Shown here: one piece after another, positions 5,901 to 39,500 of the stretch
Position numbering within the stretch: the stretch's first letter is position 1
How the letters are laid out: each line of letters opens with the position of its first letter
From: Pycnococcus provasolii
Taxonomy: Eukaryota; Chlorophyta; Pseudoscourfieldiophyceae; Pseudoscourfieldiales; Pycnococcaceae
Reading direction: 5' to 3'
NCBI GenBank assembly: GCA_938743325.2
Contig: OW568865.1
Coordinates: forward strand, 1,054,001-1,118,000
Length of the DNA: 64,000 nucleotides
Translations under genes and position numbers: made by a program
The notes under the pieces: generated by a model
The model's database searches: none
What the model was told of the DNA's origin: nothing
What the model saw: only the letters and a program-made list of their open reading frames with translations

Positions 5901-6563
5901 GAGCACAGAGGTGCCTTGTCCATCGCCAAGCAATAATACACCATCAGCCTCTCCTCTCACATGCCCACTCGCGTCAGCATCCAGCGTCTTACACCGTCCA
6001 TCTGCCGCAAGCAATCCAGCGCGTTGCAAGCTCGCCGTAGAATCCACATGACAGAGCACCACCACACCACCAACCAAGCTGCTCGCATTACCAGATTTCT
6101 GCGCATACTGCGCCGCCACGAGACTAGACGAGCAAGCCGTATCGATGCTAGCCGTGGCGCCATGCAATCCGAATTGGAAGGCTAGTCGCCCTGAAGCAAC
6201 GCTCGCCGCATGGCTCGTGAAACTGTACCCATCTGCTCCATGGCCGAAAGCTTTTGCCACAGCACTGTAGTCAGCTGAGCCGATGCCGATCGCGACACCA
6301 CATTCCGACGATGTAGTTTTCCCAACTGCCTCCAACGACGACAAGAGCAGAACACGCTGCTGCGGATCCATCAGAATCGCCTCAGCCGTTGGTATACCAA
6401 ACACTGCAGCATCAAACGCATCAGGAAGGCGTGCAGCTGAAGCAAGTGCTGCGAAACGCGGTGCCCCAGCCTGATCGACGTCCCATCTTGAGTAAGGTAC
6501 AACCGCTGACATGTCGAACAGGATTTCCATATCGAGCGACTTCTCATTCTGCGACGACCAGCT
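2928..6563 (-). other. PKS module 8 and release: KS-remnant-ACP10-thioesterase
   Basis: The KS has Cys12769, but its first histidine motif is altered to HGVGSALGDPIEV and the second reads STGHQEAAAG, so the triad residues remain. The 300-400 residues after it look like a shortened DH/KR remnant with no catalytic motif. ACP10 has GILDS (Ser13303). The thioesterase has GGTSYGGVVALEVA with nucleophile Ser13471 and a late GDHFSM histidine. A proline/serine-rich tail of about 150 residues follows. The terminal unit should be an unreduced extension released by hydrolysis or cyclisation. Confidence 0.78.
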
Positions 6564-15500: not shown

Positions 15501-18500
15501 AAGCTCACACGCGGCATCGAGGCTACGATTCGACGCGCCGTAATTCGCCTGACCAGGTGAACCTAAGAATGCGGTAATCGAGCTGAAGCAGAGAAAACTT
15601 GCGTCGCCATTCAAATGCACCCTTTGAATGGCATTTTCCATGCCCCCAACCTTGGGTGCCATGGACGTGCGAACACGAGACGCCGTCTGGTTGGGAAGCA
15701 TCGCATCTGCGAGCACACCCGCGGCGTGCACGATGCTCTGCACCGCACGCATTCCATCCACGCTTGCAGCTGCTTCTGCAGATGCCGACGAATCGCCGCG
15801 GAGGAGCGAAATGCTTCCCGTCCACTCGTGGAGAAGACGCAAACGGCCACCACCACCGCTTCTTCGGCCCGTTCGGCCCACCATCACAACGGAACGCGTC
15901 ATCCTCGATTCGGCAAGCCAGTCAGCCATGTGGCTACCAATGGCGCCCATACCACCCGTAATTAACGTTTGACGACACAAACCACCAGCCATCGCTGGAT
16001 GGTGCTTTCTCATCACCACAATCTTACCCACGTGACGCGATTGAGACATCTGCCGAAATGCATTTCGCGTATTCCCCAGCGTGTGCTGGATCTGCGGTAG
16101 GGCGTTGATCTCGCCCGCGGCGCACATCACGCACACACGACGCGCAAGCTTGCCGAGCAGCTGCGTCGTGAGAAAATCAACCGCAACGTACCCGAAGCGA
16201 ACATCCGCGCGCTCATGGCGTGCTGCGGCTGCGCTGTACACGTCGCGTTTTCCAATCTCCACGAAGCAGGGATCCGCGACGTGCCCAAGAATCGCTAGCG
16301 CACCCGCCACGTAGCCAGTGCTCGTCAGCGAGTTGAATATCACACGCGCACCACCATGCCTGCTCGTCATCATAGCACCCATCTCAATCCAGTGGTGTGT
16401 GCGCGACGATGAAACCTCGCTCACTGCCATCGTGTTGCGGCATAGAGCACGCTTCCAAGACGAGCCTGCGGTTGCGTGTATTCTTGCACCCACCACACCG
16501 CGCAGAAGCTGCATGGCGGCAAATCCCACGCCGCCGGATGCGGCGGGGAGCACGACAACGTCGTTCGCACGCACGCGCGCAGCCTGCGAAAGAGCAAGCT
16601 CGCACGTCACGTACACCGTTGGCATGGTCGCGCACGCACCGTACCCGATGTGCGCCGGTGCTTCCGCAAGCGTGCGCGACGATGACACGACAAATGACCC
16701 GAGGCATCCTGGCGCGAATCCGAGCACTGCATCGCCGACACGAACATAAGAACTCGCACAAGAATCACATCTCACCACGACACCCGCACAGTCGCCGCCG
16801 GGATCACCAGGATCGCCGGGGTACATCCCGAGCACATTCAGCACGTCGCGGAAGTTGATTCCGACAGCCTCCACGCGTAGCGATGCCGTCGTCGCGTCGC
16901 CTTGCGTCGTCGCATCATCCACGACGAGTGTCAGCTGAATTCCTCTTAGCGATCCGCGCGGCTTGGGCAGAAGCTGGAAGCGATCGGACGCGTCTCGTAT
17001 CGACTGCTCACGCCTTGCTGGAACCACCTTCGCGATATGGCGAATGGTTGCATTCTGGCGAAGCGCAGCGAGGCAACCTTCGTCGTCCGTCCCCGCCCCC
17101 GCGCGTGCGAAGCGTGCAAGGGAGGCTGTCGCATCAACATCCAACAGACGCGTCGGAACGTTCGCAGCCTCTTGTTGAATCGAACGAGCCATGCCGTACA
17201 GCGAAGCTGCAGTCAAGCTTCTTGCAGGCCGTGCGGGCGACGCCGCAGTTCCTGGCTGGATTCCTTCCACGGTGCGGTAAATTGTCGTTGTCCTCTGCAT
17301 CATCTGCGCGGTGACGAGCATAGCCGCCAAGGCACGATCAGCAGCCACGCCGCTATCAAGCACAAATTTGCGTCGCGTGGTACTGTCCAATGATGCAGAC
17401 AAGAGCGGTGGTGATATCGCACGGCGGTATGGATAGGAGCACTGGTACTCCTCAAAACGCGACACTGGCCACGTCACGGAGTAAACGCACGGCGTCGTGA
17501 GGTTGTCTGCTGCTAACTTGCTTGCAGCAGCAGCAGAAGATGATCCCTGGCTCGCCGCCGCCTTGGCCAGCAGTCCCGTCACCGTACAAACAGCACCCTC
17601 CCCACATTGCCCACCAAAAATACCGTAGTCTACCAAGGCACCAAAATCATCCAGCTGCCGTGCAGCCGCCACGGCGTGAAGCACACCACCCGACCGTTCC
17701 GTGGCACCCATCATTGAGGCACTTGATGCGGGTGCAAGCCATGCCGACGAGCCATCGGAGGCTGCGGGTGCACCCGCACGCTTCGATGCAGGTGCAGGTG
17801 CAAATAGCGTGCACCGTTCCCATCCCGCCGGAACGCGTGTGACCGCGGGTGCATCCGCCTGAGCGACGCCCTGCACCACCGCACCGAGGTGGAAGCTGCC
17901 GTCAAGTATGCTCGGATGCACAAGCCAGCCGTGTGCACGCCCACAGCCGTCTAAAACGTGCAGCGTGCCCTTCGCCGCGGGGAGTTTTCCCTCGGCGGCA
18001 TGCCGAATGCCAGACAACGTGCGGAAGCGTGGTCCATACTGCAAGCCAACGCGTCGAAGGGCGGCATAAACGCCGGTGTCACTCAGCGGGATGGCAGCGG
18101 CGGCGGCGGCGGCTGACACCTCCGAACCGCTTCTACCACCATCACAGCATTTCATCGGATGTGTTCGCACGTCGCCACGAACAAGCGACGACGGCGTAAC
18201 CGTCGCAGCTTTTTCGCCAACGCTTGGCATCTCCCAACCTCCGCGGAAGTGAAGCATGGGGCGATGATGATGACTTCGCTTGGTTGTCGTCGACGCCTCG
18301 AACATTCCCTCGCGCGTGTCGACTTGAAAGGTGAGCTCCATGCGTTCGGAAATGTCATTGGAAAAGACAAACGGCATGGGAATCACGCAATCTCTCAATC
18401 GGCACGTCTTCGCCTCAGCTTGCAGCGAAGCTGTGGCGGCGAATGCGTACTCAGCATATCCAGCACCAGGATAGAGACCTTGGCCATTCACGCGGTGGTC

Positions 18501-21500
18501 CTGGAGGAAGCTGAATTCGTCACGCTCGATGTGCGCCGCAAATCGAACGACAGGCGACGAAGCTGCGATGATAATTGCGTCCACCGCATCCGTCAAGGCA
18601 TGCGCAATGGGCATCGGCCAAACTGGTCTCAGGGCACGCCACAGCATGTGTGACGCCGACGGCGGCGATGTCATCGCCTCAACCTGTTCAAGCATCGCGT
18701 GGGCGTTGCTTCCCTGAAACGCAAATGCGCTCGTGCCCACGACGCCGTCGTCACGGCCTACCATAAAGCCGCCACCATGCAGTGCCTGTCGAGGCATGTG
18801 CAAGGTACGCTTTTTCGTCGTTCCCAGGCTTGCCACGTGAGGATTGATGGACGTGAGATGGATCAGTGGTAGATTCGCACGTCGCCTGACGGAAAAGGCG
18901 GCATGCGAAAGCCCGGTGACACCAGCCGCCGGCTCGGTGTGACCGACGTACGTCTTAGCTGACGTCACGCTGAGCGGCGTTGTCGTTCTCCCATGCTGGA
19001 ATGCCGAGATGAGTGCACCAACCTCGACGGGATCGCCAAGTGGCGTACCCGTGCCATGCATCTGCGCGGCAACGACGTGAGCATTGGGACCAAGTTCCAT
19101 GAGTGCTCGGCGTAGCACATTCCCCTGACTTGGCCCATGAGGTGCCGTGAGACTGGAGCTTCGACCATCTTGGTTGATGGCAGAGCTTGCGAGGATCGCC
19201 AGAGGCGAGGCGACATCGACGTCGCGCACCGCGAGCATGACACCGTGACCTTCTCCACGCACGTAACCGTCTGCTCCGCCATCCAGCGTCTTACATCTTC
19301 CGTCAGGAGCGAGCATGCCCGCGGAGTGGAAGCACAACGTGGTGGCAACGCTGAGCGTGATCGAGACGCCGGCAAAGAGCGCAGCTTCGTCGCCGCCGTC
19401 GCGCAAGATGTTCGTTCGACTCGTGTGCGCCGCGATCAGGCTCGCACTGCAGGCTGTATCGATCGCAAAGCATCCGCCGCTGAGCGCGTACGTAAACGCC
19501 AGCCGTCCTGCGGCGACGCTCAAGCCGCTTCCCGAGTTGACAAATGCTCCGGGACCGCCGTGCGCAAGGCTCATCTGCAGGTACTCGCACGTGCTGATTC
19601 CCACGAACGTTGCGCACGCTCGCGAAACAGATGGGAAGCTGCGAAGACACTCGAGAGCATCCATGAGAAGGAGACGCTGCTGTGGATCCATCACGCGCCC
19701 TTCGCCCTCCGCGATGCGGAACGGTCCGAGCTCGAAGCGAGACACGTGTGCAATGTATCGTCCAAATCGAGGGATGGCGCCGTCCGATGGAGATGCTCCA
19801 GGTCGCGTTGATGGATTTGCTGGCAGCCTGTCTTGAAAGAGTGCCAACGCCTCAATTGCATCCCCAAGAAGCGCCCCACCGCCAGCCTCGGGAAGGAGGC
19901 TGTCACTTGCAGCTGCAAGGATCACCTTCGAGGTGTAAGATGACGAGGACGACGGAGTCATCAAAGACTTTGCAAGCTTCAGAGTACCACCATCACGACG
20001 ACGATGATTTCGTCTTCTTGGCTTGCGTGATTGTGCCGCAGCAATGTGATTTGTGAGTGCTGCCAAAGTTGGGTAGTCAAAGACAGATGTTGAGGAAAGG
20101 TCAGCGATGCCATGACGATCTCGCAGCGCGTTGATGAATTCCACCGACCCAATGCTGTCAAGTCCCACTTGCATCAAAGGAGCATCCAACTCCACGTTCA
20201 TGGCATCCATACCGAGCACCGATGCGAGCGCCTCGCGAACGCCACCTTCGATGGCTGAGCGTTGTTTCTCCATGATGTCCTCGTCCTCGTATTCCTCCTC
20301 ATAATCCTCCTCCTCATAATCCTCCTCCTCCTCCTCATAATCTTCCTCCTCCTCTTCTTCTTCTTCACCTGAAGAAGAATCACCACCACCACCACCAAGG
20401 CTCACCATGAATGTCGCAAGTGCTTCCACGGTGGGGTAGTCGAGCACAGCCGTACCGGGCAACTCCACTCCAAACGAGGATGCCATTCCATTCCGCAGAT
20501 CCACCGCGCCAAGCGAGTCAACACCAGAAGCCATGAGTGGTGCATCGAGCTCTACATTGTCAATGCCAGTCACCTCACGTATCATGCTCACAATGGAATC
20601 TGACACCGAGCTCAAACTCAGCGTCGTGACATTCTTGTTCGTCGCCACGCGACGACGTTCCCCTTTTCGGCTTCGCGCCGACGTTCCCACTCGACCACTA
20701 CTACTGTCCATCAAAAGCTCTCGCAGCTTTCTTGAAAACGTCTCAGAGGAGGCGAGAAGGGTAAGACCGGCGCATACACCGCCGCCCCTGGTTAGTCCGA
20801 AGCCAATGATGTCAAGGCCATGTGCCGGCTGCAGCAGACCGAGGCCAATGCTCGCCGCTCGATCTCTAATCCCCTTGGTGCCTGACGCCATACCAGCCGC
20901 AGCCCACGGACCGAATTGCACGCTCGCAGCTGTAAGGACGGTAGAGGCAACGATAGCATCCAAGGCTGCATTTGCCGCCGCGTAATTCGCCTGACCAGGC
21001 AAAGATAGGAGCGCCGCGACACTGCTCAGCACGAGCAGGCTCTGCAGTGGCATGGCGGTGTACATGGTACAGCACGCAAGGGCGGGTGGCAGCTTCGGTG
21101 CGAAGACGGCGCGTACGCCAGAAGACGTCTGGTTGCGTGCAGCAGCATCCGCTAATCTGCCCGCGGCGTGGATCATCCACTGCGACGGATCTGAAAACAA
21201 GACGTGCTTCACATCCGCCGAGCGTGAGACGTCAGCCATTGCCATCGTGTGCATGCAACCCGCATCATTCTCGCCGATCCTCGATCTGCCACCACCACCA
21301 GATGGTTGGCGCGAAACGCCAACCACCTCGCGCACGATGCACGCCTCCACAAGCCAGCGACGCACGAGTATGCCAATGCCTCCCGCACCTCCCGTCACAT
21401 GAACGCGTGCGTCGGGAATAGGACGATGTGGAATCACGGCACCATCGTCAAAACGTACAGCCACCTTACCAGCTCCGGGGGATGGGCCACGCATCGCGCA

Positions 21501-24500
21501 CACGAGTGCCCTGCGCGCATCCAGGCTGTCAAACGTCGCCGTGGATGGCGGAGACACGATGCCAGCATGCATGCCAAGAGCAAGCTGGTGGAGCAAATGC
21601 GAGAGAGGCGACGCGGGCATGTACTGCGGGTTGCGATCGCGAGCGGCGCCAACCACCAAAAGGGCATGCGTGACATCCTCTCGTTCCGCGGCAACGGCGG
21701 CGTGCGAACGGATCAGACGCTTGCCAATGTCTGCGACGCGCCCACCGACGCCGAGCGTGGCAAGCGTCGCGTCGAACAGTCCAGGCTGCGTCTGCATGCC
21801 GCCAGCGAGGGCGGCGGAAACGCCACCTCCCGCCGTCAGCGTGGTAATGTCAGCCGCAAATTGCGATCCTCGCGATCCAGAGTACAAAATATGGCGTGCA
21901 TGTACGTCACGACGCAGGAAGCTGCGCTTCGCCGGCGAGCTGGCTGTGCCAAACACCGCACCGTCGAGCATGCGTGCCGCCGCAAGGCCCACGCCCGTGC
22001 CCACGCCATGTATCAGAAGAATGCGTGGCGTGTCTCCCTCCACCGCGGCAATCGCATGAGCTGCGGTGACACATACGGTGGGCGACGCCGCGAGCGCGTG
22101 CGGGGAAATCGCACGGGGAGCGGCGGCAAGCAGCTTCGACGAACACCAGTGACGGCTCGCAAGGCATCCTGGCGCGAAGCCAAACACGGCGGTTGTCGGG
22201 AGCATAAACAAGCCACCCTTCTCCTCGGTTTCGGACACGTAGCCATGCAGCTCTCCACCAGGACGTCCAGGATCGTAGTTCGGGCCCGCGGGGTACATGT
22301 CGAGAACATTCAGCACGTCGCGGAAGTTGATCCCTACCGCAGTCACCACGAGGCACACATCTGTATATCCCGGCTCAGGACAACCCGTGCGTGCGGCAAT
22401 GTCGTCAATGCCGTACCGCACGCGAGAAATGGATCCACGTGGCGATGGCGCCTCGATGTGAAGTGCTCGTGATGTCAAGCCTGACGCGGCGACAAGGCGC
22501 TGCTGTGGAACAAGACGAGCCTCGTGCCACGTTGTCGCGTGCAGGGCAACGACATCCTTTTTGAGATCATGATTGCAAATGCTGCCAAGAGGAACTCGTG
22601 ATGCGAGCGACGTGTGAAGCTCCGTCGGCTCGTGCTTGGCGTCACCAATTTCGTTTTGGATCGTTTGAAACGCCGCAATGCATGATGCTGCTGCGGATGA
22701 GGCATGTGGATCAGCAAGGCGCACGGGAACCAAATCGTTCATAACTTCCATGCTGCTGCGCAGCGAAAGTGGATGCCGCAATAACGTGGCAAAGTGCAAG
22801 AGAGTTTGGCACATGCGCACGGCACCGGGAAGCATTGGCTTGGCAGAGTGCAAGTGGTGGTATCGTGCATGCGTGCTCACTCGCACAGAGGAGGCGTGCA
22901 CAGGTGGTGGACATGTGGCATCGACGACCGCCTGCGCGGCAACCCACGTCTTGGTATACAGCGTGCCAGCAGTCGTCGTCGATGAGGCGGTGGCTACGAG
23001 AGATCCGGACGTAGCTTTCGCGAGAGTAAATGGACGCAACGAAACATCGAGAATCGAGCCATCTTCCCCCCAATCACCCAGGTGGAACGACGCGAGCGTA
23101 CCGTCGTTGCCATCCGATGTCGCGCACGAGGCGACTTCCACATTCGCATGTGTTGTGCGTGTAACATGAACCAGCGCAATAGATGCCGGTACTCGCAGGG
23201 CAGCGTCGCCGTCGCGTGTGGCAAATGCCATCGCCGCACCCGTTTGGAGTGCACAGTCCAGAACAGCGGGGTGCATGCCGGCATACGCGCGTGCGTCCTC
23301 CGAGTTGGTGATCGTGCCAGTGCATGCCGACATGCGAACGATGCGCTGGAATGCAGAGCCGTACTGCAACCCATGGTCGCGGAGGTTCGCCACGAAGTAC
23401 GCTCGATCCAGTGCATGCTCTCGGACGCATGCACCACCCGCTCGGCATAAACCTGATTTCTCGATCGTCTTCATCATGGTGGCAGCTGACTGCACAAAAC
23501 CTTTCGCATCCTGGTCATTTTTTCCACCTCCTACTCTTCTGCGCTGTAGCGCACGTGCCGTTATCGCAAACGCGCCATCTTGCAAGTTGATTGCACACGA
23601 CATTTTCAAGTTGCGCACAATCTCAATCGCTTGCAGGAGCACGACATGCGCGAGCACGATGGCGTCAGAGGAGCCTGCCACGTCGGCAGAGGCTCTTGCC
23701 ACCTCGAGCGTCGCCGTGCCAGGAACCAAAGCCTTGCCCGCAATGACGTGGTCTTGAAGGTACGCCGCGGACGCGGTGTCAAGATGTGCCACGCAAGTAA
23801 GTGTCGCTGTCGACGATGCGACACGAGCCAGCAGCGAATGCATGCGAGGTTCTACCGCGCATCGGCGGGCGCGACACAGCACACGTGTTGACGACGCGAG
23901 GCAGGTCAAGCCATGCTGCTGCGGTGACCTCCGCGACGCCACGATGGCATGCGCATTCACACCGCTCATTCCAAACGAACTTGTTCCGGCGTGAGCATGC
24001 ATCTGTTTCGGTACGCCTGTCATGTGCGCGCGTGCCGCGCTGCCAAAGCCAATCACACGATCCTTCTCCGTGTGTGCGCCGGCGACGTGTGGATTGACGT
24101 TCCTCAAGTGAGTCATGGGAATGACCACACCGCGTGCGCAGCTAAGCTGCGCGAGAAGGAGGCCCATCAGGCCCGCCGTCGACTCCGTGTGTCCCACGTT
24201 GGACTTTGACGCGCACGCGAATGTCACCGCAGACGACGACATCATACCGTCGTCACCATCACTGACTTCGCCATCATCCATACTATTCTCGGGTGCTGAA
24301 TCTCGTCGTAGGGCGTCAAGCAGCGCACGAATCTCAATCGGATCGCCCAGAGGCGTGCCGGTGCCATGTAGACTCATTTGGGTAGCAGCCGTCACACCTT
24401 CGCGCGCATCACGCAGCGCAAGACGAATCAGCGCTGACTGGCTTGGACCATTGGGCGCCGTCAGGCTCGAGCTTCGTCCGTCTTGGTTGACCGCGGAGCC

Positions 24501-27500
24501 TGCGAGTGAGACAGCCGCCGTGGCGCTTGAAGAAGAGGTGCCGCTGATCACCTGGAGGGCTGCGACCGCCTCTCCACGACCGTAGCCATCACCAGATGCG
24601 TCGCACGTCTTGCATCGCGCATCCGGCGCAAGCGCGGAAAGGGCAGAGAGATTCGCAAAAATGGGAACGTCGAGGCACAAATTCACGCCAAGCGCGAGAC
24701 TGTCGATGAAGTCGTGGCGGGCACCGCGAACCGCCATGTGCGTCGCCACGAGCGAACTTGAGCATGCGGTGTCGATGGCAGCGCTCGGTCCCACCAAGTT
24801 GAGGCGATATCCCACGTGCCCGGCAGCCAGAGAAAGCCCGCTACCAAGCACGGCGGCGGACGAGCCGAAGATGCCAAAGTGACGAAGGATGTCGGGTAGT
24901 TCTACCCAGCACTGGCCGTAGAAAACGCCGCACGACGTCGGAGACGATGTGAGCGCCGCCACCCTCGAAGAAGAGGAAGACATTCGAGCGATGGCGGCAT
25001 GTTCGACAGCTAATCGCACCTGCGGGTCCATGTATCCCGCTTCCGCGGGTGACAGGCGGAGCATCGTCGTGTCGCAATCTGCCGTGACATGGGGAGGCAA
25101 GAAGCTGCCCAGATGTGTGCCAAGCTTGAGCTTGGAGGTGGTGGATGCCACCTTTGAGCCCACCAAGCGCTCGCGAGGGAAGTATTCGCATGGATCGCGG
25201 TTGGAAAGGTAGCCAAGCATCGCATTCTCTGTTGTACGCGCCATGGGCGATTCAAAACTCCATGCGGCGATCGACGCGATGGCGCGCACGTCGCTGCTAG
25301 GAACGAACCGCGCAGGTGTTGCGACGTGGCTACCCTGCGCGGCGACGACTGTGCGCGAGGCGGCTGCACGCGCGGCGTGCGCGGCAAGGTCGTCTTGAAC
25401 AGCCTTCTGCCCCTCCGTCGCCCAGTCACTCAGCGCCGCCGACGCCATGGCAGACATGTCCATCTTTGCCATCATCGCCTCACGATCGAACAGGTCACGA
25501 TCGCGCGGATTTCGACCACCGCGTGCTTGGCGCGGCGGCGCGCTTGCCTCAACGAAGGCGGCAATCGCTGCAGCGCTGGGATGGTCGAAGATGAGCGTGG
25601 CTGGAAGCTCCATGCCAACCGCGTTGGCGAGGTTGTTGCGCAGCTCGACGGCACCGAGCGAGTCGAGGCCCGCATCCATGAGCGGTGCGCTTGCGTCGAT
25701 GTCGTCGCCGGTGCCAAGAGCCTCGCGCGCCAGACGAGAAACGATCGCGATCGCAGGCTCGGCGGCGGCATCGGCATCGTCTCCCGAGCCGTCCGCGAGA
25801 TGTGCGAACATGTCCACGTTTGCGCCGATGAGAGGGTGAGATGGCCCGCTGTAGAATCCTGGGACATGCACCCACCGTTCCTTGGTGCACGCCAAACCAC
25901 CGTGCACGGAGTACGCACGCTTGCCGTCCGCGTCAACGTGCAGGAGATAGAACTGGCCTTTGACTTTTGGCCGGGTCGTCGTTGGCAATGCGAGGCGACC
26001 ATCCACCGTCCACAGTGAGGCGTATCGCGCACGCATCTCAACGTACTCCGCCGGAGTTAGGTGCGTGCGCCCTTCGAGGCGATCGGCAAGGTTGCCCAAG
26101 GAAATGGGCCGACGCACGCGAAGCACGTACAACGTTGCGACGTACCCCGATCCAAACGAATACATGCCAATCCTTGAGGGTGCCGAGCGACCTTCGAGGT
26201 TCTGCGGTAGGAAAATGCTCGCGGCGTTGTAGAGCACCGTGCACGTGTACGCGTTGCCAACGCCCTCGCTGATCGTAAGTCCGGGCGCCATGATGCTGTC
26301 CCACACCTCCTGCAGCTTTGCATCAGAGCCATCGGCGCCAAACTCAGCCACGATGAGCTGACGGATCGCCTTTTTAACCAGGCGCGTGTTTGGACTGTGC
26401 ATAGAAAGGCGATCCACGCTCTCCAACAGGCGCAGCGGCGGCTGCTCCAAGCCGGACGACGTCGCGGCGCTCGCGTCACGCTGCCTCGACGACCACAGCG
26501 CGGCACAGTCCTTGAATCCCGCAAGGTACGCCTCGATGCTCGCCGGGCCGTCGAGGTGCGCGTACGGGCGATGATCAGCCACTGGCTTGTGGAAGTCGTA
26601 CGTGTCGCGCGAGGTGGTCGCACGGATCGGCTCGATCGAAAGCGCGGCGTCGGGCGTGACGAGAGCCGCGACGGCCATGGCGGTACCCGCAAAGTGGTAT
26701 CGCTCGGGGTAGCATGCAATGTCCGATGCCACGACGACGGCGTAGCGGCCATCCCATGCCTCCGACTGCATCCAGTCAAATGCGTCGAGGAGTGCCGCCG
26801 TGCCACCGTAGCACGCGTGGATGTGGTCAACGCCCTCCACGTCTGCATTGCCGACATGCTCGCAGAATCGGCTGAGAAAACTCTTGATGCTCTTAGACTT
26901 GTCCACCTGCGATTCCGTGCCCACGTCGAGTCGACCAATCTGAGAGGGATGCAGCCCCGTCTGCCGCAAAAGGCCCACGAAGGCGTTCATCGCGAGCGAC
27001 ACGGGATCCTCGTCATCGTCGACGAATGTGAGCGACTTCTGCCCAAGTGCCCCAACGTATTTTCCCTGCACGCCATCGTGCTCCTCAAGCTCAGCCTGGT
27101 CTACGACGTACTCGGGGACGTGCACGTAGATGGCGCTGATGCCAACGTCGCGCGCCCGGCCGAATGCCGTTCCTTCGGTGGCGCTTTCGTGCGCATCTGC
27201 GGCTCCGTCACCCTCCGCGCTGGCGCGTTGGCGGCTCTTCTCTTTCTCCTGCTCGGCAACGAACGCGAAGGTCTCCGCCTGCGTCCACGCCTCGTGGCGC
27301 AGAAGGCTGTCCCACATGGTGCCGCGGCTGGCGCCGGGCAGGCGCAAGGGAACGTGCGTGAGTGCAGAAATGTTAGGACGCCACTGCAGCGCGCCACGGT
27401 GTTCGCGCATCCATTGAAGAGGCACTGCATGATGGTGAAAGCTGCCTGCGTACGCCTCCGCCAGGGAGATGGCGAGCGCGTGAGCATCCTCGCGCTTTGG

Positions 27501-30500
27501 AACGACGTGCGAGACCATTCCCGCAGCCACCATTGTGCTCGAATCCATCGGCGTGACCGAAAGAAGCATGGACGCCGCTCGGCGCCATCCACCGCGAAGT
27601 GCACGTGGAACGTTGTACGACGAGCCGACACCAGGCGTCAGACCCACGCCAAGGAAGTTGAAAGCCATGCTCGCATCGTCGCTCGCGACGCGTACGTCGC
27701 TCCAAAGGCTCAGCGCCATGCCCGCGCCGATCGCACGGCCGTGCACCGCGGTGACGATGAGCGGATTGCGCCTTCTCATTCCCGGATCTTCGAAAAGCCG
27801 CGAGAATGTGCGATACAGCCGAAACAGTTCCGCGGCATTCTGTGCCGTCGTCTTCGCCTGAATCGCCGCATGTCCTTTGGCACCCGTCAGTCTTCCACCC
27901 GTGCAGAAGTGCTCGTCCCGAGACAGAACCACAATCGCTCGCACTGTCCCGGCGTCCGCAAGCCGTGCAATTGTCGCGAGGTGGACCTCCATCTCGGGGA
28001 TCACCTCTAGCTCGAGATGTCGGCTGAGGAGAGCAAGCACAGCCACGCCCGTGGACTCGTTCACCTCCAACACAACGTGCTGATTCGCGTCTTTGCTGCT
28101 GCTGGATGATGAGCCGTGCAGCAATTCCGACATAAGCGCATAGCCATCCTCCACCGAAGCCACTGGAAGCTGCGCCTTCGCAGAGGCAACGAGTGGCGCG
28201 TACAGGCGTAGGTGCTCTTTCTGAGCTGCAAGCACCGATTCACGCTCGTTCGCGTCAGCGTATCTCTGAATGTCCATTCTGCCGTTGCGTGCCAGAATCG
28301 TTTGCAAGACAGCCTGCGCAAGCGGCGATGGCGACGTGGTATCATCGACTTTGTGGATCATGTGAACATCAGCCCGTGCAAGCGATGCGTCGGCGACATG
28401 AATCAAGGCGCTAGCCCACCAAACATCGCAACCGCCGTCACGAATCGTGCATGGTGCTGGAATGTCTGCAATGACATGTCCAGCATGTGAGGCGAGCTGC
28501 GCAATGAATTCGCAGCTCCATGCTCCATCATCTTGTCCATCGCGTTCATCCAGCCTGCTGTCTTCGTACACCACCACGAGTGCGGCGGTGCGATTGGCCG
28601 GGTTGGTGCGTGCACGCATCAAGGCTCTTGTTGCAGCGCGCGAACGGTTGGGATTGAACGTGATCTCGAGCATGCGAGGCATTTCCTCGGAGATGACGTG
28701 TACAATACCATCATCATCATCATCAGACGTCTCCAACATCATAGTCTGTGTCAACATGCTCTCGAGAGCTGCAAATATCGCGCATGAGCCATTCTCCAAA
28801 CTGATGCGTGGGATACGCGCGAGTCGTAGAATCTCGGCACGGTGATTTACCGTCACCGTCACATCATCCGCCACCTCGTGCACAATACCGTGATCAAGAA
28901 GCGTCTCATGCGTAGCTGCATGATAGCCAAGCGCCACTGCGGCCATCGCGGCATCCGTCGTCACAATCTCCGCAAGTCGCATTGCATTGATTGTGCCAAG
29001 CATGGTCGGCTCCGGCGAAGAGGCGTGAGCACAAAGAAGTCTCGGAGAGTCGTTCTTCGATGCGATGCGCCACGTCGCATGCATGAAACAAAATGCTTGT
29101 AGCTCGCTCAGCGTTGACTCGCTTCGATCTTCCCCACGCGCGTTCGAGACAATCGCACACAAAGCGTGCACGCGCGTGTTGCACATGACGTGATGCAGAC
29201 GAAGTAGGCGCTTGCAAAAAGCATGCGTTGTGCTCACCACTGGAGGAGTCTCCGCATTTCCTCCACCGCTGTGCAATTCAAGCACGATCGTTGCGAAATC
29301 TGATTGTGCAGCATGCTCCACGAGTTCGAGCACGCCCAGGGGAATGCACGTCGATGCGAACGGGATTTGAATGCGAATGACTCCGTTGTCTGCACCCGCA
29401 ACCAGCCAGTCGCTTTGGTAATCGCCGTCGTTTTCTCCTTCAACCCTGGGCTGTGTTAACCATGCCACGGCACGGGCCTCGCGTAAAACATCTGGCAGCG
29501 ACATATCGGCTACCACAGATCTACGCTCGTGCTCGCGCCAGAGCACGTCGTCAGTAGTGCTTGCGACGAAGGCGGGAGCATTGTCCTGTGCTGCATCGTC
29601 ACTTTTGCACAATAAATTAAGCGCGTGCTCGAGACGATCCTCCCCTGGCCTCTCGACGACGTGCCGCAGACGAGCTGTACGGAGCAGAGCGCCTTCTCCA
29701 GCACTTTCGAGCTTCTCACGCCAGAAAGCCTCATCCTGGTTGGAATGCTCGGCCACGAGTGACTCGGAGCCTAGGAATGCCTTCCATCCTGCGGGAATCA
29801 CATCTATGTCACCGCACAGCATGGCTTGCACTTTTGACGCTGCGGCAGCACCACATCGGCGATAGACTTCAGTGTATGCCGCACCACACCAAAGCATATC
29901 AATGGGAAAAGCACCTCTGTCTCTGCTGCACTCATCTGACCATGTCACATTCGTGGGAAGCACCGCGCCAACATCGCAAGAAGCAAGCACAAGGATGTGC
30001 CTTGCATCCAGTGCTGTGTGATCCACAAACACGGCAATCGTTGGCACGGGCAGCGCTCTCATTGCGTGCACGAATTGACGAATCGTCAGTGCCCATGTCT
30101 GCACGTCGGCCTCCTCCTCAGCTTCCTGTTGTTCTTGCTGCTGCTGTCCATCAGCATGTGATCCAATCTGTACCAAAACACCGCGCAGGTTGACGTGGTG
30201 ATGGCGTCGGTGACGTCGTCGAGGGGAAGCGAGCGTCTCCATGATTTCAATGCCACGACGCCACGATGCGAGAGAGTTCAACGGCATGGGTATGGTGACG
30301 ACAGGTGGCAGTGAGTCCAAGTCTACGACGCTCGACGTCGGCGCACTTGCCGCATCAACACCTCTTCTTTCGTGAAGCCAAGATGCAATCGCCTCCTCCG
30401 CCACCGCCGCATCTGGCACCACCATGTCGACAAATCCAGCCGCGTGACATGTCTCGGCATCCCACGTGGTGCCTGCGCCAGCCCAGCGCTGCACGACGCG

Positions 30501-33500
30501 AGGTGCAAGTCGCCGCGCAAGCGCAAGTGACACAACGCCAGGCAGAAGCCCACGAGTCACCTCAGGGAGCCCGACATCCGCCGTCGCTTCGACAACCGCG
30601 AAGTCGGCGAGCGCGGGAAACATCGTACCTCCACCTCGCGTGCGGCCGCGCAGCACACACGCCATCGGAACGGAAGCTTCGTCCGCCAGCGCCTCGAGCG
30701 CTGCGCCAAATGCCTGTAGTCCGCTGACAAAACCAGCAGCCCCTCGCGAAGGATCACCGCCGAGGCAAAAGTCGCCGCCCGAACGGTCGGACGCCGTGAG
30801 CACGAGCGCGCGCACACCGCTCTGCTCGTCTGCATATGTCGCAAGCGCGGTGAGATGCTCCAATAAAGCCTCAGTTAGCAGAGCGGTGTGCCACCTCACC
30901 CACACAGCTCCCGTGATGGTGTCGTACGAAATCTCAGCGTCGTCCGTCTCAAGACTCGCTCGCCGCTTGTCATCTCCTTGGAGCCAAGCGAGCAGGCGAA
31001 CGACGTGCGATGATACCGACGTCTCCTCAGCTTTGCTGTCCTCATCAGCCCTACTCAACTTTGGATGAGCGTAGACGACACCTGCAAGACGAGCGGACGA
31101 CTCGGCGTCCGCCAACTCGACGTCGTACGTTGACGCCGACTCCTCGCCATGCACAGCCAGGCTCAGCCAAGACGAGGACTTTGACGTGGAAGGCGGTGCC
31201 TGCCACTGCACCACCTCCGCCGCGTGCGGGATGAGCACGGAGGATGGGTCAGCCGACAGCGACGCAGCGATGTGTGCTCCAGCTGCGAGAACGTGCACAT
31301 GCCATCCCACGATGCCATCGGCGCGGGAGATTCCTGGTTCGTCCTGCCGCAAAAAGGCCCGCGCGAATGAGCCCGAATCCAACGTGGCACCGTGATTTGC
31401 ATGGCCCACGTGACACCACGCCGCGATGGCAAGTTGCAGTTTCGAGTCCCTCGCGAGCGAGTGCGGCGCGCACTTTTCCGCCGCGCGCCATGCGTGGTGA
31501 GGCGGCGCCGTGCTGTTTGCGTGCAAGAATGCAGCCTTCGTGTTGGTGCGCACGAACGTCGTGCGCAGCAAAAGGTTCGCCTTCTTGCCGCTTTCGTCCG
31601 AGTCGAGCGAATGTGGCGACGACGGCGACGACGTGACTTCCACTACAGCTGACACCGTCGTGCTGATTGTCGCGTGCACCACGTCACGTCCGTCGAACGA
31701 ACCAACGTGGCTGGCAAATACAAGAGCGCATGCGTGAAAGGCTGCATCGGGCACGGACAGGCTCTCGACGGCCGCGAAGGCCAGCTCAATCCAGGCGGTT
31801 GGCGCCATCGCCGCAGCTGTTCGACTGTTAAGGTTATCGACGTTCGGTGACGACACGGCGTCAAGAAAGCGCGATACCGCATTCATGCGAAATGCGACGC
31901 GGCGGCTCGACGGCACGTATCTCTCAGATTCCACGGCGGCTGGCATGCGGCAGGCGCGAGCTGCTAGGGCGCAGCGCTTCTGGCGAAGCGTCGTTTTATG
32001 GCGCGTGTACCGGCCGATTGTCTCCGACACATCGCGCGGCTTCGTCGCGCACTTTGCAACGGCGTGCGCGTTGACTCCGCTCATGCCGAAGCTGCTCGTA
32101 CCACAAATCGCGCTTTCTGGTGAGCTTGAAGGGCAGCTTGCAGCATGCTGTCGACTGCCCATGACACAGATGCCAGCCTTGGAAGCTGCATCAAGTGTCT
32201 GTGTGACAAGCGGATTCATGTCACGAAGTGATGCAAACGGGGGCCGCATCGCGCCGAGTATCATCGCGAGCGCGAGCAGAGCGCCGGTAAGTCCCGCCGA
32301 GCTTTCCGTATGTCCGACGCTAGCCTTGGACGAGCCTATCGCAGCTGTCACACCGCCGGACAGCGCATCAGCAAGCGCCTTCGTCTCGATCGGGTCACCG
32401 AGCGACGTTCCCGTTCCGTGAAGGCTGATAGCGTCCGCCGATGTCGCTGTGGAATCCACTCGTGCCGCCTGCTCAAACGCCGCACCAAGCAAGCTTGTCT
32501 GCGCTGGCCCATTCGGCGAGGTGAGACTGCTGCTCCTGCCATCCTCGTTCACCGCCGTGCCCAGCAGGACTCCCACCATCTGCGTCGTCGTCGTCATCGT
32601 CGTCGTGGCGTCATCGCGCGCGAGAAGCATGCATGCAACTGCCTCCGATCGCCCGTATCCATCCGCCTCCACCGCAAACGTCTTGCAGCGACCATCGGCG
32701 CTGAGAGCCTGCAGGGCCGCTATACCACACGTGTTCTCGACGAGCTGCATCAGATTCGTGCCGCCAGAGAGCACATGTGGATCCGTTCCGCGCACGCCGA
32801 GGTGCGTGGTGACAAGCGAGCTTGAGCATGCCGTATCTAGCGCGACGCATGCACCAACGAGGTTGAACGTGAATGACAGCCGACCAGCCAAGAAGCTGTG
32901 CCCAGAGCCAGTGCCAGCATAGCTCGACCCGATACCTAGCGACATCTTCCACAGCAATTGTGCGTACTCTGCAGGCCACATCGAGCCCACATAAATTCCC
33001 GTCGCGGTGGGTGGCATGGCGTGCGCACCATCGTCGTACACGGCAAACGCCTGCTGCACGAGTGTCATCAAAAGGCGATGCTGAGGATCCATGGCATTCG
33101 CCTCGGGTGTACTTATGCCGAATGCCGCTGCGTCGAATACAGCCCACTCATTCAAAAAGAAGCCGCCGAGGCGCGTGTTGCACGTCATCTGGCCTTGACG
33201 AGGCTTCGGCGAGTAGTAGGCCTCCGCGTCCCAACGCTCGAACGGCGTGCGACACTGCACATCGAAGCGCATGTTACTGCTCACTGGAGCGAAGCCAGGG
33301 CTGCAAGATGCACGCACGGAATCCGGCGACGATTTGGTGCCACCATCTGCCGCGGCGAAGCCACGACTGCGCAGCTGCTCGGGGTACTGGCTTGCAGTCG
33401 TGGCGATGTACCACGAGGATGTGTGCGCCGTGCTTTCACTCCTTGTCCTTGAAGTTGTGCGAATAAGTGCAGCAGCCGGCAGCAGGAGATCGCTCGCGTG

Positions 33501-36500
33501 CTGCATGATGTGGCGTGTCGTAGGAAAGTCAAACACGAGTGTCGCAGGCATGGGTACGCCGAGCAATTCTTCCAAGCCTCGGCTTAACGCCGTTGCCGCG
33601 AGACTGTCCACGCCCGCATCCATCAGTGGAGCATCGAGTCCTGGTGGCGATGCACTGCCGACAGCCTCCGCGACAAGCGCCGGGATGCGCTCGAGGGTTT
33701 GTCTAACGCGCGCTTGATCGGCTGCCGTAAACGTATCGCCGACGATGATGGATGACGAACCAGAGATGCGATTGGCGGAGAAGCTTGGCTCCTCAGCACA
33801 CGGCAGATTCTCGTACAAAGTGGAGCGGAGGCTGGCTAGTGGCAAGAATCGCTGCCACACGAAGGATGATGCTGCGAACACACATCCATCTCCACTCATC
33901 ATAGATCGCGTGTCGTCAACAGCCATCAGCAGGTGAGCAATGACGGTGAGGCCAGCGCTGGGGGTTACCACGCCTACTCCTGCGGCACGAGCAGCATCCG
34001 TCACCGCAGTGTCCGCCATGCCGTCGGCGAGCTCCACCCATGGACCCCACTGGACGCTCGAAGCTAGGCAAGTCCCAGCGTCTCGCATAAGCAGAATGCG
34101 AGCATCCAGTGCGGCATTCGCCGCAGCATACGAGCTCTGTCCGGCGTTAGAAACGAGTGTTGCGGCACTGCTGAAGGCGATGACACGGCTAAGTGGTGCT
34201 GCGTGAGTACCCACGCCAAGCACCTGCTCTGCCACCCGCACCTTGCTCGCCCAGCTCAAGCGCCAGTGGGATGGTGTCTGACGAAGAATGGAAGCGTCAA
34301 GCTTTGCGCCGGCACAAAGCAAGACCGTGCATATGCCGCGAAGCGTACCCTTGACCGCCAGACGAGCTTGCTCGCCGGAGGCGGCGTCCGTGCGCATGGT
34401 GGCTACAAGTGTATCGCGGTTGGCCAGCGAGCTATTGGCTACGCCTTTCTTGCCTTCACCACTGCGGCCTGAGCGGCTCGTCAGCACTATCGTGCGAAGT
34501 TTGCAGAATGAGTCATCTGCCATCATCTTCGCAACCACCTGTCCAATGGCACCCGTTCCACCTTGAATGACCGACCGACGAGTGCGTTCTCTGCACGCTC
34601 TTGAGTTCGTGCAATGGACCCGTTCTGGCAGTCGCAGGCTGAGCGTCTTGCTGAGCGCTGTGCTGGCACGCACTGCGAACAAACCCTCCTCTGCTTTAGG
34701 TACTCGAATAGTCGTTGGCACATCACCTTTCGTTGAAAGACGGATCGTTGGCCATGCCACACTACGCTGCATCTTTTGGACGTTTGCTATGTCCACGTCG
34801 AGCGATTGGTATGCGTCAGCACGAATGCGACGTTCGACGAGTGCCACGCTGAGCACAGAGTCTATGGCCACGGCATCCTCAAAGTGCGGAGAGCCAGACA
34901 AGCTTGGAGACGGCGACGTCATCCAGCCTCCGAGCGATCCTTGCGATGCGATGGTTCTTAGGCTGATGCGCACCACATCGCGAATGCTGGTGAGAAGTTG
35001 CGCAAGATTCATTGCCGCATTCGACTGTCTTGCCGCAAACGTGGGAGCATAAGGTCCCACAATTCTCGGTAGAGATTGGCTTGTAAGGCGTGCGCGCCAG
35101 GTAATAGAGTATGCTGTGAGCTGTTCCACTCCTGGCGTGGTGTGATCATCAGCGTTCCTGCTGGCCACCTTCATTACAAGGCTATTGGCCGTGACCGCCA
35201 CATTACCACCTTGTACGATTCGATGGTCCGTCGTGTCATCAATCCCATGAACACTGACTCGCGCTCTACCGACGGACAGAGAACTTGCAATGGTCAGCAT
35301 TCCAAGCGATGCCGGGATCTTTGCGGAGATATTGTTCGTGCCATCCATAGACATCAACGACTCAGATTCGGTGAGCATTGCAGCCTGAAAAGCCGCGTCA
35401 AGCAGTGAGGGATGCGTGAGGAATCCGCTGCGTGCGTGGCTGTGCTCCGGCTTCACGCGTACAAGAGCACTTCCACCACGTTCTAAAATACGCAAACAAT
35501 GCAGGCTCTGAAAAGCTGCTCCATATTCCAATGACTTTGAGGCTCTTGCATATGCGTAAATCACAGAGGCGCTCACGGGCAATCCAATAGCGGTGCAATC
35601 ACGCAGCAGTCCCTGTGCAGTCTCGTTCTGAGCAGGTTGGCGATGCAGTGCGGCGGATGCTGCAGGTACGATCGCCCGGCGAATGCTCGTGCATGCGCGA
35701 AGTCGATCGCTCGTGCTAAGTAGAAGTGTGCCGGTGGGTAGGCTGACATCTGCGCAAAGACGTCGCTCTGTCGCAAGATTCACAGGAGCAACGAAACTCG
35801 TGCCAACGATGCCTGGGCTAGACATCGTCGTAGTATCTTCCGCCGTGTATGCAAGCCAAAACGCGATATCCAGCAGCGCCGCCGCGGGAAGCAGAGGTAC
35901 TCCAGCGACGATGTGATCACGTAGAAACGCATATGATGGAACATCGCGTAGATCCGCCGAAGACACCGAAACGTAGGGTGCTTCGCACGGCAAGGGACTT
36001 GGTGGTGGCAACGGCGCATCGGAAAGCTGCGACACGGCTAGCGCATGCATTTCCATGTTTGATATCCAGAAGAATCGCGGATGGTACACGCGTCGCACCG
36101 ACGATGCAACGACGCAATTTTTGTGTGTTCGCGCCAATGCCACATTGGCATTGGTTCCCTGGAAGGCAAAGGCGCTCACGCCACCCGCGGCACACGTTCC
36201 TTGCTCGTATCTTCCAAGGTGCTGGCGCGCAAGATATGCGTAGGACGACGCAGTGGTGACTCCACTCTCTGGAAGACTCGCGGCCACAAAAGCGTTCACA
36301 CTTCGCAGGTGGATGATTGCCTCGTTCGCGGTATCATCGAGGCGTAAAGCAAGAGCAGCCAAGCCCACGCCGCCACTTGCCGGCTCGGCGTGTCCCCATG
36401 CGCTCTTCCGCGCGGCGAGGCTGACGCTCTCCGCTCTGCTCGCCATTAGCACGGCTGCAGCCACGGCACCAACCTCAATCGGGTCGCCGAGCGGCGTTCC

Positions 36501-39500
36501 CGTGCCGTGCAGATCCACGCGCATCACGCGGTCAAGCACCGATCGCAAGCTCGCCGCTAGTACACGCTGCTGTGCGGGACCGTTGGGTGCCGTGAGAGCG
36601 CTGCTGCGTCCATCCTGGTTGACTCCGGAACCTGCCACAATCACCCCACCATCACCACCACCAACTGCTGCCACCATCGTGCAAGCCTCGGATCGCACGT
36701 AGCCATCGGCACCTGCGTCGAGTGCCTTGCAGCGTCCATCAGGCGCGAGAAACCCGCCAACCTCGAAGAGGCGCGTCGTTCGGTCCATCAAAAGCAAGTT
36801 CGCGGCACCGCTCAGCAGCGAAGGTGCTGCTCCATGCGCTGCTGATCTCGCAGCATGTTCGCCCAGCGACATCGCCGTCAGCGCGCTCGAGCAGGCTGTA
36901 TCGCAGCACACGGCGGCACCGCCAAGGTTAAAGAGATAGCTCAGGCGTCCCGAGGCGACGCTGAGAAATCCACCAACTGCAGTGTGCGGCGTGATGCGTA
37001 CACCTGATGCAAGAGTCATCGGCAAATATTCGGCAGCCGCAATTCCAATCGCAACGCACGTCGTGGGGAAAGCATCCTTCTCCACGGAGGTGGAAAGCGC
37101 CTCTCCTGCACGCACGCAGAGCATTCGCTGTTGAGGATCCATGGCTCGACTCTCGCTTGTCGTGAGTCGGAAGGCGGGTGCATCGAAGTGACCGGCATTT
37201 GCGAGGAAAGTGCCAAAGCGCATGCCGCCACCTTTCGTGGTGCGGCTGCCACCATCAACATCGTGGCGAAGTAGCGGACAAACTGCAATGGCGTCTTCGC
37301 ACATTTCCTCTGTTGCGAGAGCCATGTTCGCAGTCATGTGTGCCAGCACCAAGGGTTCTGCCACCATCGCATCTCGATCCTCAGGTTTTTGCACAACTAA
37401 TTCGCCGTCTACATCCATGTCCGTCGTCAGCGTCGATGCAACGTACGCAGCAAGACTGGCGATGGACGGATAATCGAAGATCGCCGTAGCGGGAAGGCTT
37501 AGTGCCACGGCGGCGTCAGTACCGTCCCCGCCCGTGTTCAGCACTTGTCGAAGCTCCACACTTGTGAGTGAGTCGAGTCCAGCATCCATGAATGGCTCAT
37601 TGACATCAAGTTCACGGCCGAGCACCGATGCGGCTGTGCGCGAAATGTAAGCGATTGTCGCATCGAGAGTCATGTGAAGGTGATGTCGTCGGGCTGCACG
37701 TTCCTCCGTTGGTAAATCGATCTTGACGGCGATATCCTTTGATGTAGTGGTATCGCAAACATCTTGAAAGAAGGGAGCGTTGTGCACGCACACCGCTCCA
37801 GAAGCAACCAGTTTAGGAAAGTCAAACGCACTGCCAATGAGATGCAATCGGAATGTTGGGTCGAGAGTAAGAGCCAGTACGGCAAGAGCCTGGCGTTCCT
37901 GCATGAATCCAAAGCCTGCACTTTCAATTCGACTAAGCACAGACGCTGCCATTCCACCCGACTCACCGCCCCAAGCTCCGTACTGTATCGCCGAACTTGT
38001 CATGCCCGTCACAAGGCGGCAGCCGTCGAGTGTTCGTGCCATCGCCTCATTGGCAAATGCATACGTCAGCTGACCTTTATTTCCCAGAAGCCCGGCAATG
38101 CTTGAGAAGCCGACGAAGGCACACATCGGTGAAAATTGCGTCGACGCGAGCACTTCCAAGGTCGCATTTTCCTTGGGTGGTAGGACTGCACGCACACCCA
38201 AAACTCGCTGGTTTGCAAGGCTCGCATCCGCCAGAACTCCTCCAGCTTGCAGAACGGCGGCTAAGGGTGATGGCGGCGGAGATGTGCCAAGGAACATCCG
38301 CGCATCGGCACTGCATGCGGCGTTCGTGCGAGACAGTGTCACCACTGGGGCGGCGTGCTCAAGCCATGCAAGCGAACGCCGCGGTGATGCCCTTCCCGAG
38401 CGACCTGATAGCACCAGGTTGTGTACACAGGCATGCTCGACCAGCCAAAGCGCGCACACGCCACCGAGGACACCCAATCCGCCGAGGATGGCTGCCGAGT
38501 TCGCTGCAAACGCCGGAAGAGCAAATGCTCGGCCTCCTGCGCCGGCACTTTTGATTGCAATGAGCTTGCCGATGTGGGACGCCTTGGCCATGGTGCGAAG
38601 CGCAGAGCGCGTTCCGCCGACAAGAGCGAATGTCGATAGAGGCAGAGATCCAGCAGCCTCGGAGGCGTGCACATGCGCTGCAACACGGGCAATGCGCTGT
38701 TCAATCGCACTCGCGTGCATGAGATCCAGTGCCACAATATTTGCGCGCAGATCCCACCTCTCGCTTGCAATCGCGTCCGCTCGCCAGATGTTCCGCTTCG
38801 ATATCTCGGCAAACGTGCCGGTGGGTGCGAGGTTTGCCATCGTGGCTGCGACAAATCCGGTACTGGTCAGGCTGTTCAGTGCGAGCACCGTCGGAGTTTG
38901 TAAAGTGGCGAACGTTTCTGCGAAGCACGTGCTGCGACTGCTTGCAACCGCAACCGAGTCGCACGGAGATGCAAATGAGGAGGCCCATCGGCGCGCTGCC
39001 GATCGCTTCGTCGACGTTCCCGCAGATCCGTGGATGGCGAGGTGCAGGTGGCGTGCAAGCCTCGCACTCGCTAGGCCGACGCCTCCAGACACGCCGTGCA
39101 CAATCATTGCAGATGGCACAGTAGTGCGTCGCGTCATGAGCGCAAGGCAAGCATCCGCCGTGAGTGTGACGGTGGGAATGGACGCAGCTTCGCCTACACA
39201 TAGTGACGCTGGCATTGGTGCGAGCAGGCGTGCGTCAGCATCCACAACGCGCGTGCCCAGGCTGCCAAATGCCTGGCCGAAGAGCGCGGTACCCAAGGGT
39301 AGCGACGAAGACACGGCAACGGCGCCTGCGCAATCTCCGCCGGGTGCGCCAGGATCACCGGGGTATAAGTCGAGCACATTCAGCAAGTCGCGAAAATTCA
39401 AGCCCACTGCGAACACGCTGAGATGAATGGCGTGACGAGGATTGGATGGCGACGCGCAGGTGACGGGCACCGCGCGAAGGGAAGCGATGCTCCCTCGTGG

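Follow-up and report, generated by a model that had tools for sequence, protein, structure and literature searches.

In the trans-acting cassettes that install beta-branches in bacterial polyketide synthases (PKSs), a donor acyl carrier protein (ACP), a KS-zero (KS, ketosynthase), a hydroxymethylglutaryl (HMG)-CoA synthase (HMGS), and the crotonases ECH1 and ECH2 amount to five proteins, to which recognition of the right ACP is added; the tryptophan (Trp) flag of the acceptor ACP is not universal in these systems (PMC10006238, PMC7618002). Among eukaryotes, modules with two ECH domains and an HMG-CoA synthase (HCS) domain have been described in PKSs of Emiliania huxleyi, with the same function proposed; two of these PKSs have three such modules apiece (PMC7073580). 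Haptophyte PKSs have a single N-terminal acyltransferase (AT) and have been termed "semi-trans," and the domains that the legend to Figure 7 of the same paper gives for the Euglena gracilis megasynthases include ECH and HCS, without a statement that they share a module (PMC7073580). The stretch analyzed here (the window) comprises 64,000 nucleotides of Pycnococcus provasolii (contig OW568865.1, positions 1,054,001 to 1,118,000) and encodes a giant PKS whose third module contains two crotonases and an HCS in line.

The idea of a beta-branching module in a eukaryote is not new, because the E. huxleyi modules are on record (PMC7073580), and an earlier note on this DNA, which knew of no described eukaryotic PKS with such a layout, must be corrected in this respect. 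Three points appear to be new: the cassette is probably related to in-line cassettes of bacteria, its HCS is separate from the PksG type, and the PKS that carries it is AT-less and chlorophyte-like.

The cassette of module 3

Module 3 is composed of a KS, crotonase A, ∼730 amino acids (aa) without an assigned family, crotonase B, HCS, and ACP. All features of the PKS lie on the minus strand, and residue n starts at window position 44438 − 3(n − 1). The KS (aa 3725 to 4070; 32229..33266) was recognized by Pfam and carries the TACSSS and HGTG motifs. Crotonase A (aa 4520 to 4685; 30384..30881; Pfam ECH_1, 4.4e-14) is ECH1-like and crotonase B (aa 5489 to 5670; 27429..27974; Pfam ECH_1, 7.8e-22) is ECH2-like, while the HCS domain (aa 5762 to 6179; 25902..27155; Pfam, 4.1e-50) is of eukaryotic type according to TIGR01833 and trees. 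The ACP (aa 6233 to 6296; 25551..25742; PP-binding, 2.9e-12) has the motif GLDSLGAVEL, is single, and bears no Trp flag; the tandem ACPs of this PKS belong to module 4 and not to the branching module.

Between 25449 and 33368, seven Pfam families were found at an E value of ≤0.001: the N and C parts of the KS (6.5e-42 and 2.3e-21), PP-binding (1.4e-11), ECH_1 in two stretches (5.9e-38) with ECH_2 overlapping it, and HMG_CoA_synt_N and HMG_CoA_synt_C (1.8e-50 and 1.6e-22). No ketoreductase (KR), enoyl reductase (ER), dehydratase (DH), or AT was found there at this threshold, in agreement with the earlier note, which had described a module without a KR. The E values are far from chance and the reading frame is unbroken, and the presence of an in-line HCS/ECH/ECH cassette between the KS and the ACP of a giant eukaryotic PKS, as that note had claimed, is therefore confirmed. 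So are the catalytic residues named in it: Glu5842 (window position 26915), Cys5876 (26813), and His6014 (26399) fall in alignment columns that hold E, C, and H in all 16 HMG-CoA synthase rows, i.e., the window and 15/15 others.

Kinship of the synthase and the crotonases

The window HCS scored 296.1 bits against TIGR01833, the eukaryotic HMG-CoA synthase equivalog (cutoff, 286.2), compared with 119.4 and 99.2 bits for the two trans-acting PKS HCSs scanned. Four in-line bacterial HCSs (L012 to L015, introduced below; a fifth, L079, was outside the scan) also passed, at 349.6 to 390.3 bits, so that this model does not distinguish mevalonate HMG-CoA synthase (HMGCS) from in-line HCS. A search of PDB sequences returned cytoplasmic HMGCS (2p8u) as the best match (1.2e-64), ahead of CurD (4e-13) and PksG (9.1e-9), and identity was highest to human HMGCS1 (40%). 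In a 16-row tree, the window HCS grouped with three eukaryotic HMGCSs (support, 100/100), apart from six trans-acting PKS HCSs (100/100). In a 39-row tree, it joined five in-line bacterial HCSs (96/93), and this group joined the three eukaryotic HMGCSs (100/100), with the PksG-type rows elsewhere (100/100). Two constrained topologies were rejected: placing the window HCS in one clade with the seven PksG-type rows lowered the log-likelihood by 85.3 (approximately unbiased test, p-AU far under 0.001), and placing the window and in-line HCSs together in such a clade lowered it by 128.4.

The kinship to bacterial PKS-type HCS that the earlier note implied is thus not borne out; in the tree that it had suggested, the PksG alternative falls, the eukaryotic-type alternative stands, and the nearest rows are in-line bacterial ones. 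On these comparisons, the window HCS is firmly separated from the PksG type and leans toward the in-line bacteria rather than toward eukaryotic HMGCS. The in-line cassettes would then probably form a lineage with eukaryotic-type HCS that the window shares with a small number of bacterial PKSs and that stands apart from the trans-acting PksG/CurD lineage. Because the HCS belongs with the eukaryotic-type/in-line group and not with PksG/CurD, the synthases of beta-branching may go back to two recruitments.

The bacterial relatives were obtained by searching genome_contigs, which covers 84,980 prokaryote species, with an alignment, A2, of the window, two eukaryotic synthases, and one myxobacterial synthase; the best 80 of 160 relatives were retained. 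ECH-ECH-HCS occurs in line at five of these 80 bacterial/archaeal loci (L012, L013, L014, L015, and L079), which qualifies the contrast drawn by the earlier note with bacteria that use separate proteins. Their HCS frames measure 1,626 to 2,365 aa, against 388 to 700 aa at the other 75 loci, and two crotonases precede the HCS in all five. The alphaproteobacterial L012 reads ACP-ACP-ECH-ECH-reductase-HCS; its reductase is a male-sterility-type domain (NAD_binding_4, 3e-62; L012:2422-3123) that separates crotonase B from the HCS. L013 reads ER-KR-ACP-ECH-ECH-HCS-GNAT/FeeM-like, L014 reads ER-KR-ACP-ACP-ECH-ECH-HCS, and L015, on a Thiosymbion scaffold of 679 kb, reads KS-AT-ECH-ECH-HCS-ACP. In L079, from a Symploca metagenome-assembled genome (MAG), AT-DH-ER-KR-ACP-ECH-ECH occupies one frame and the HCS, with a nonribosomal peptide synthetase/PKS unit, another; the frame changes at the start of the HCS (L079:5959-6037), through sequencing error or decay.

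The window shares with these cassettes the ECH-ECH-HCS order, the eukaryotic-type HCS, and the kinship of crotonase A, but its crotonases are separated by ∼800 aa rather than by 32 to 47 aa, and the ∼730-aa insert is absent from them. Unlike the AT-less window PKS, L015 has a cis-AT, and in L013, L014, and L079 the cassette stands behind an ACP, unlike in module 3. The KS of module 3 (KS3) has no special likeness to the KS of L015, and the evidence of sharing with bacteria therefore concerns the cassette and not the module. In-line HCS looks rare among bacteria. None was found beyond the seed genomes in 386 sampled genomes of the Symploca phylum and 369 of the Thiosymbion class (up to four candidates scored per genome; the other matches scored 176.5 bits at most, and no frame among them exceeded 767 aa), and the search of the L014 phylum covered five genomes. 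Nothing was found in viral_contigs with either the HCS alone or alignment A2. One further locus, L110, has a crotonase within a 7,589-aa open frame, in the same genome as the Chloroflexota locus L083, whose HCS is one of the seven PksG-type rows.

Crotonase A scored 34.7 bits with an ECH1 model and 14.4 with an ECH2 model, and crotonase B scored 71.8 with ECH2 and 39.1 with ECH1. In a tree of 46 crotonase rows, 23 of them generic, crotonase A grouped with the five in-line A domains (99/97) on the side of trans-acting ECH1, and it shares GGGxxFP and RGxLPGxVS with those domains in the alignment. In four plasmid ECH1 rows, the columns of its Asp4562 and Glu4626 likewise hold Asp and Glu. PksH reportedly requires Glu137 for dehydration, on which Asp68 also has an effect (PMC7501309), and the two residues of crotonase A would occupy the corresponding places, PksH itself being outside the alignment. 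A tree without the generic rows placed crotonase B beside trans-acting ECH2 (89/90), a result that we do not rely on. Crotonase B, like the ECH2 rows, has no Glu at two places that we take to be the usual crotonase Glu positions.

Proposed mechanism and alternative explanations

We consider, with a probability of roughly 0.7, that module 3 is a self-contained in-line beta-branching module with a cassette of the in-line lineage. KS3 would produce a beta-ketoacyl chain bound to the ACP of the same module (KS and ACP are present and a KR was not found), and the fused HCS, judging from its family and intact triad, would add an acetyl unit to the beta-ketone by aldol addition. Crotonase A would dehydrate the HMG-type adduct, as both carboxylates important in PksH appear to be present, and crotonase B would, less securely, decarboxylate it, the beta-methyl alkene product being handed to module 4. 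Fusion of the cassette may make a docking signal on its ACP unnecessary. Acetyl-CoA may be the source of the acetyl units, in place of a donor ACP that a decarboxylating KS has charged. The PKS frame itself is without a KS-zero, since the catalytic Cys is kept in all eight of its KSs (motif check). A hint of acetyl-CoA as donor is given by HCS position +9, counted from the catalytic His, which, like position +5, presumably contacts CoA: a basic residue is kept there in the window (Lys), in the eukaryotic rows (Lys, 3/3), in the in-line rows (Arg, 5/5), and in 22/23 other rows, whereas 7/7 PksG-type rows have Gly.

Several observations weigh against this interpretation. The HCS trees contain only three eukaryotic HMGCS rows, none of them algal, the branch of the window HCS is long, and a clade of the window with eukaryotic HMGCS is not rejected (p-AU 0.054); when L003, L047, L084, and L079 were dropped, the window and in-line HCSs grouped at 92/90 and the eukaryotic alternative again survived (p-AU 0.052). 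Four of the five bacterial loci (all but L015) are on MAG contigs of 5.6 to 26.4 kb, for which contamination is possible. Crotonase B joins the in-line B domains at 67/24, and the rows closest to it by path are generic crotonases. Its His5715 is one column off the His of four of five ECH2 rows (the catalytic His, H230 in PksI), and the four in-line B domains long enough to cover this column have no such His. The case for CoA is not consistent, because the residue at +5 is Arg in the window versus Tyr in 5/5 in-line rows, and a donor ACP/KS-zero pair may be located elsewhere in the genome, outside the PKS frame.

Some of these points would be accommodated if the alga itself had assembled the cassette from host crotonases and its ancestral mevalonate HMGCS, the bacterial likeness being due to convergence or long-branch attraction. 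The survival of the eukaryotic clade at both p-AU values, the human enzyme as the one of highest identity, and the wide spacing of the crotonases compared to bacterial cassettes all favor such an origin, but the best trees from both row sets put the HCS with in-line HCS, crotonase A independently does the same, and the order A-B-HCS is identical to that of the bacterial cassettes; we regard a host fusion as rather unlikely. A similarly doubtful alternative concerns the last step: crotonase B may be no decarboxylase, and the carboxymethyl branch would be kept or isomerized. The lack of a securely aligned ECH2 His in crotonase B and in the in-line bacterial B domains points this way, as does its weak place in the tree. 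Against this, crotonase B clearly prefers the ECH2 model, it lacks both usual crotonase Glu residues as ECH2 rows do, and the His is not universal in ECH2 rows, L009 having Gln in that column. (L009, an Azospirillum protein, has its own peculiarity: it joins a KS without the catalytic Cys [SSGEASS] to a crotonase of the ECH2 type [254.8 bits; L009:6256-8838], i.e., KS-zero and ECH2 in one chain.) That module 3 is a degenerate, skipped relic, with the long insert as a mark of decay, is very improbable: the insert does lack any family, but the frame is open, and the expected catalytic or attachment residues are retained in the HCS, crotonase A, KS3, and the ACP of module 3 (ACP3). Misjoining of the HCS region into the PKS during assembly is hardly credible, given a single frame from KS3 to ACP3 and similar arrangements in E. 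huxleyi (PMC7073580) and at five bacterial loci.

A broader and much more tentative scenario can be envisaged, in which beta-branching arose at least twice. The second form would consist of a eukaryotic-type HCS fused to two crotonases, would use acetyl-CoA directly without donor ACP, KS-zero, or ACP flag, and would have been exchanged between bacteria and algae as one unit; it would explain why HCS is kept in some chlorophytes without the mevalonate pathway, and the insert might represent degenerate crotonases that complete a trimer in cis.

The surrounding PKS and comparison with known systems

Two stretches of module 3 have no assigned family. The one between KS3 and crotonase A (aa about 4071 to 4490; 30969..32228) gave nothing above the Pfam cutoff, and its candidacy as a dehydratase relic (aa 4080 to 4500) is not supported: with a model built from the DH regions of the window itself, it ranked below several of 20 shuffled copies. 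The insert between the crotonases (aa 4716 to 5445; 28104..30293) likewise has no Pfam family over the cutoff and no PDB sequence match at an E value of ≤1 (aa 4717 to 5400). Weak signals of the crotonase C-terminal half appeared in separate scans (ECH_1 E values, 0.021, 0.0031, 0.019, and 0.12) and are no stronger than an unrelated 1-cysPrx_C signal (0.028) in the adjoining piece. Single-sequence AlphaFold2 models of the insert (mean pLDDT, 39.0 and 40.7) were unusable; Foldseek with the second, low-confidence model gave no match at an E value of ≤0.001, an enoyl-CoA isomerase ranking fourth (0.048). With hhalign, the insert matched the crotonase alignment weakly, and the positive control of this comparison was void, both window crotonases being target rows. 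A degenerate crotonase-like segment near aa 5153 to 5236 is possible, and the insert as a whole possibly holds degenerate crotonase copies.

The PKS is a giant type I enzyme encoded by a single open frame (2928..44438; 13,836 codons, 13,836 aa) within a stop-free stretch from 2931 to 44498, and comprises a loading adenylation (A)-ACP unit, eight AT-less modules, and a thioesterase (TE). The listed start is GTG and the next codon is ATG (44433 to 44438); as the likelier start in a eukaryote, the ATG directly after the GTG probably marks the true start, at 44435. After the loading AMP-binding domain (aa 36 to 577; 42708..44333; Pfam AMP-binding, 9.5e-61; AMP-binding_C, 1.3e-15) and its ACP, the order is KS-DH-ER-KR-ACP (module 1), KS-DH-KR-ACP (module 2), KS-ECH-ECH-HCS-ACP (module 3), KS-DH-ER-KR-ACP-ACP (module 4), KS-DH-ER-KR-ACP (module 5), KS-(DH-like)-KR-ACP (module 6), KS-DH-ER-KR-ACP (module 7), and KS-ACP-TE (module 8). 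These assignments rest on best Pfam stretches and motifs, with domain-by-domain refinement for module 3 alone. Three overlapping Pfam scans of the entire frame detected no acyltransferase family at an E value of ≤0.001, and the Trp-flag motif DS.....W does not occur anywhere in the frame. The C-terminal pair of ACPs in module 4 has a very acidic, low-complexity linker (window about 20160 to 20525; aa 7972 to 8092). Neighboring genes encode BBS5 (1.3e-137), a PI4-kinase (4.1e-39), and a subtilase (2.6e-35), a setting that marks the DNA as eukaryotic, and an apparent fragment of a DDE_Tnp_1_7 transposase (1.5e-20), matching the C-terminal part of the profile alone, lies at 53179 to 54129.

In its N-terminal A domain, lack of an AT, and MDa size, the window PKS resembles the multimodular trans-AT PKSs of chlorophytes (PMC4661987, PMC7073580), and it also has their C-terminal TE. 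Chloropicon primus, for comparison, has 12 PKS genes, a GC content of 57.5%, 0.5 intron per gene, and a flagellar gene set that is almost complete (PMC6731263). The main text of the chlorophyte PKS paper contains no occurrence of HMG, hydratase, crotonase, or hydroxymethylglutaryl (PMC4661987). In the open-license literature, neither in-line ECH-ECH-HCS in bacteria nor a chlorophyte case was found, subscription papers being mostly outside the search. HMG-CoA synthase is present in chlorophytes, mostly Trebouxiophyceae, and rhodophytes that lack the mevalonate pathway, and co-option has been suggested (PMC6642084); PKS-fused HCS is a candidate explanation for part of this retention in chlorophytes. 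If it exists, a fused module that works without a donor ACP would provide assembly-line engineering with a simpler component and would allow the role of the ACP recognition signal to be judged against a natural control. A second synthase origin, if true, would alter the tracing of beta-branching in genomes, because the NCBIfam mevalonate model TIGR01833 claims in-line HCS above its cutoff.

The trans-acting HMGS cassettes (PksG/PksH/PksI; mupirocin and virginiamycin type) involve the same kinds of enzyme as the window and presumably the same chemistry (PMC10006238, PMC7618002, PMC7501309). They consist, however, of separate proteins with a donor ACP, a KS-zero, and an HCS of another clade, in contrast to the cassette fused in one frame, and their acceptor ACPs are often tandem and Trp flagged, whereas ACP3 is single and unflagged. 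Eukaryotic mevalonate HMG-CoA synthase is free-standing, unlike the HCS within the PKS module. In an Alternaria cluster, a eukaryotic HMG-CoA synthase, encoded with an enoyl-CoA hydratase beside a PKS, was suggested to introduce a branch by a beta-branching type of mechanism (PMC8102738); by the published description, on which this comparison is based, the two are separate genes, unlike the fused cassette. The E. huxleyi PKSs resemble the window PKS in the domain content of their ECH/ECH/HCS modules as described, and they have an AT and three such modules each, whereas the window PKS has no AT and one such module (PMC7073580).

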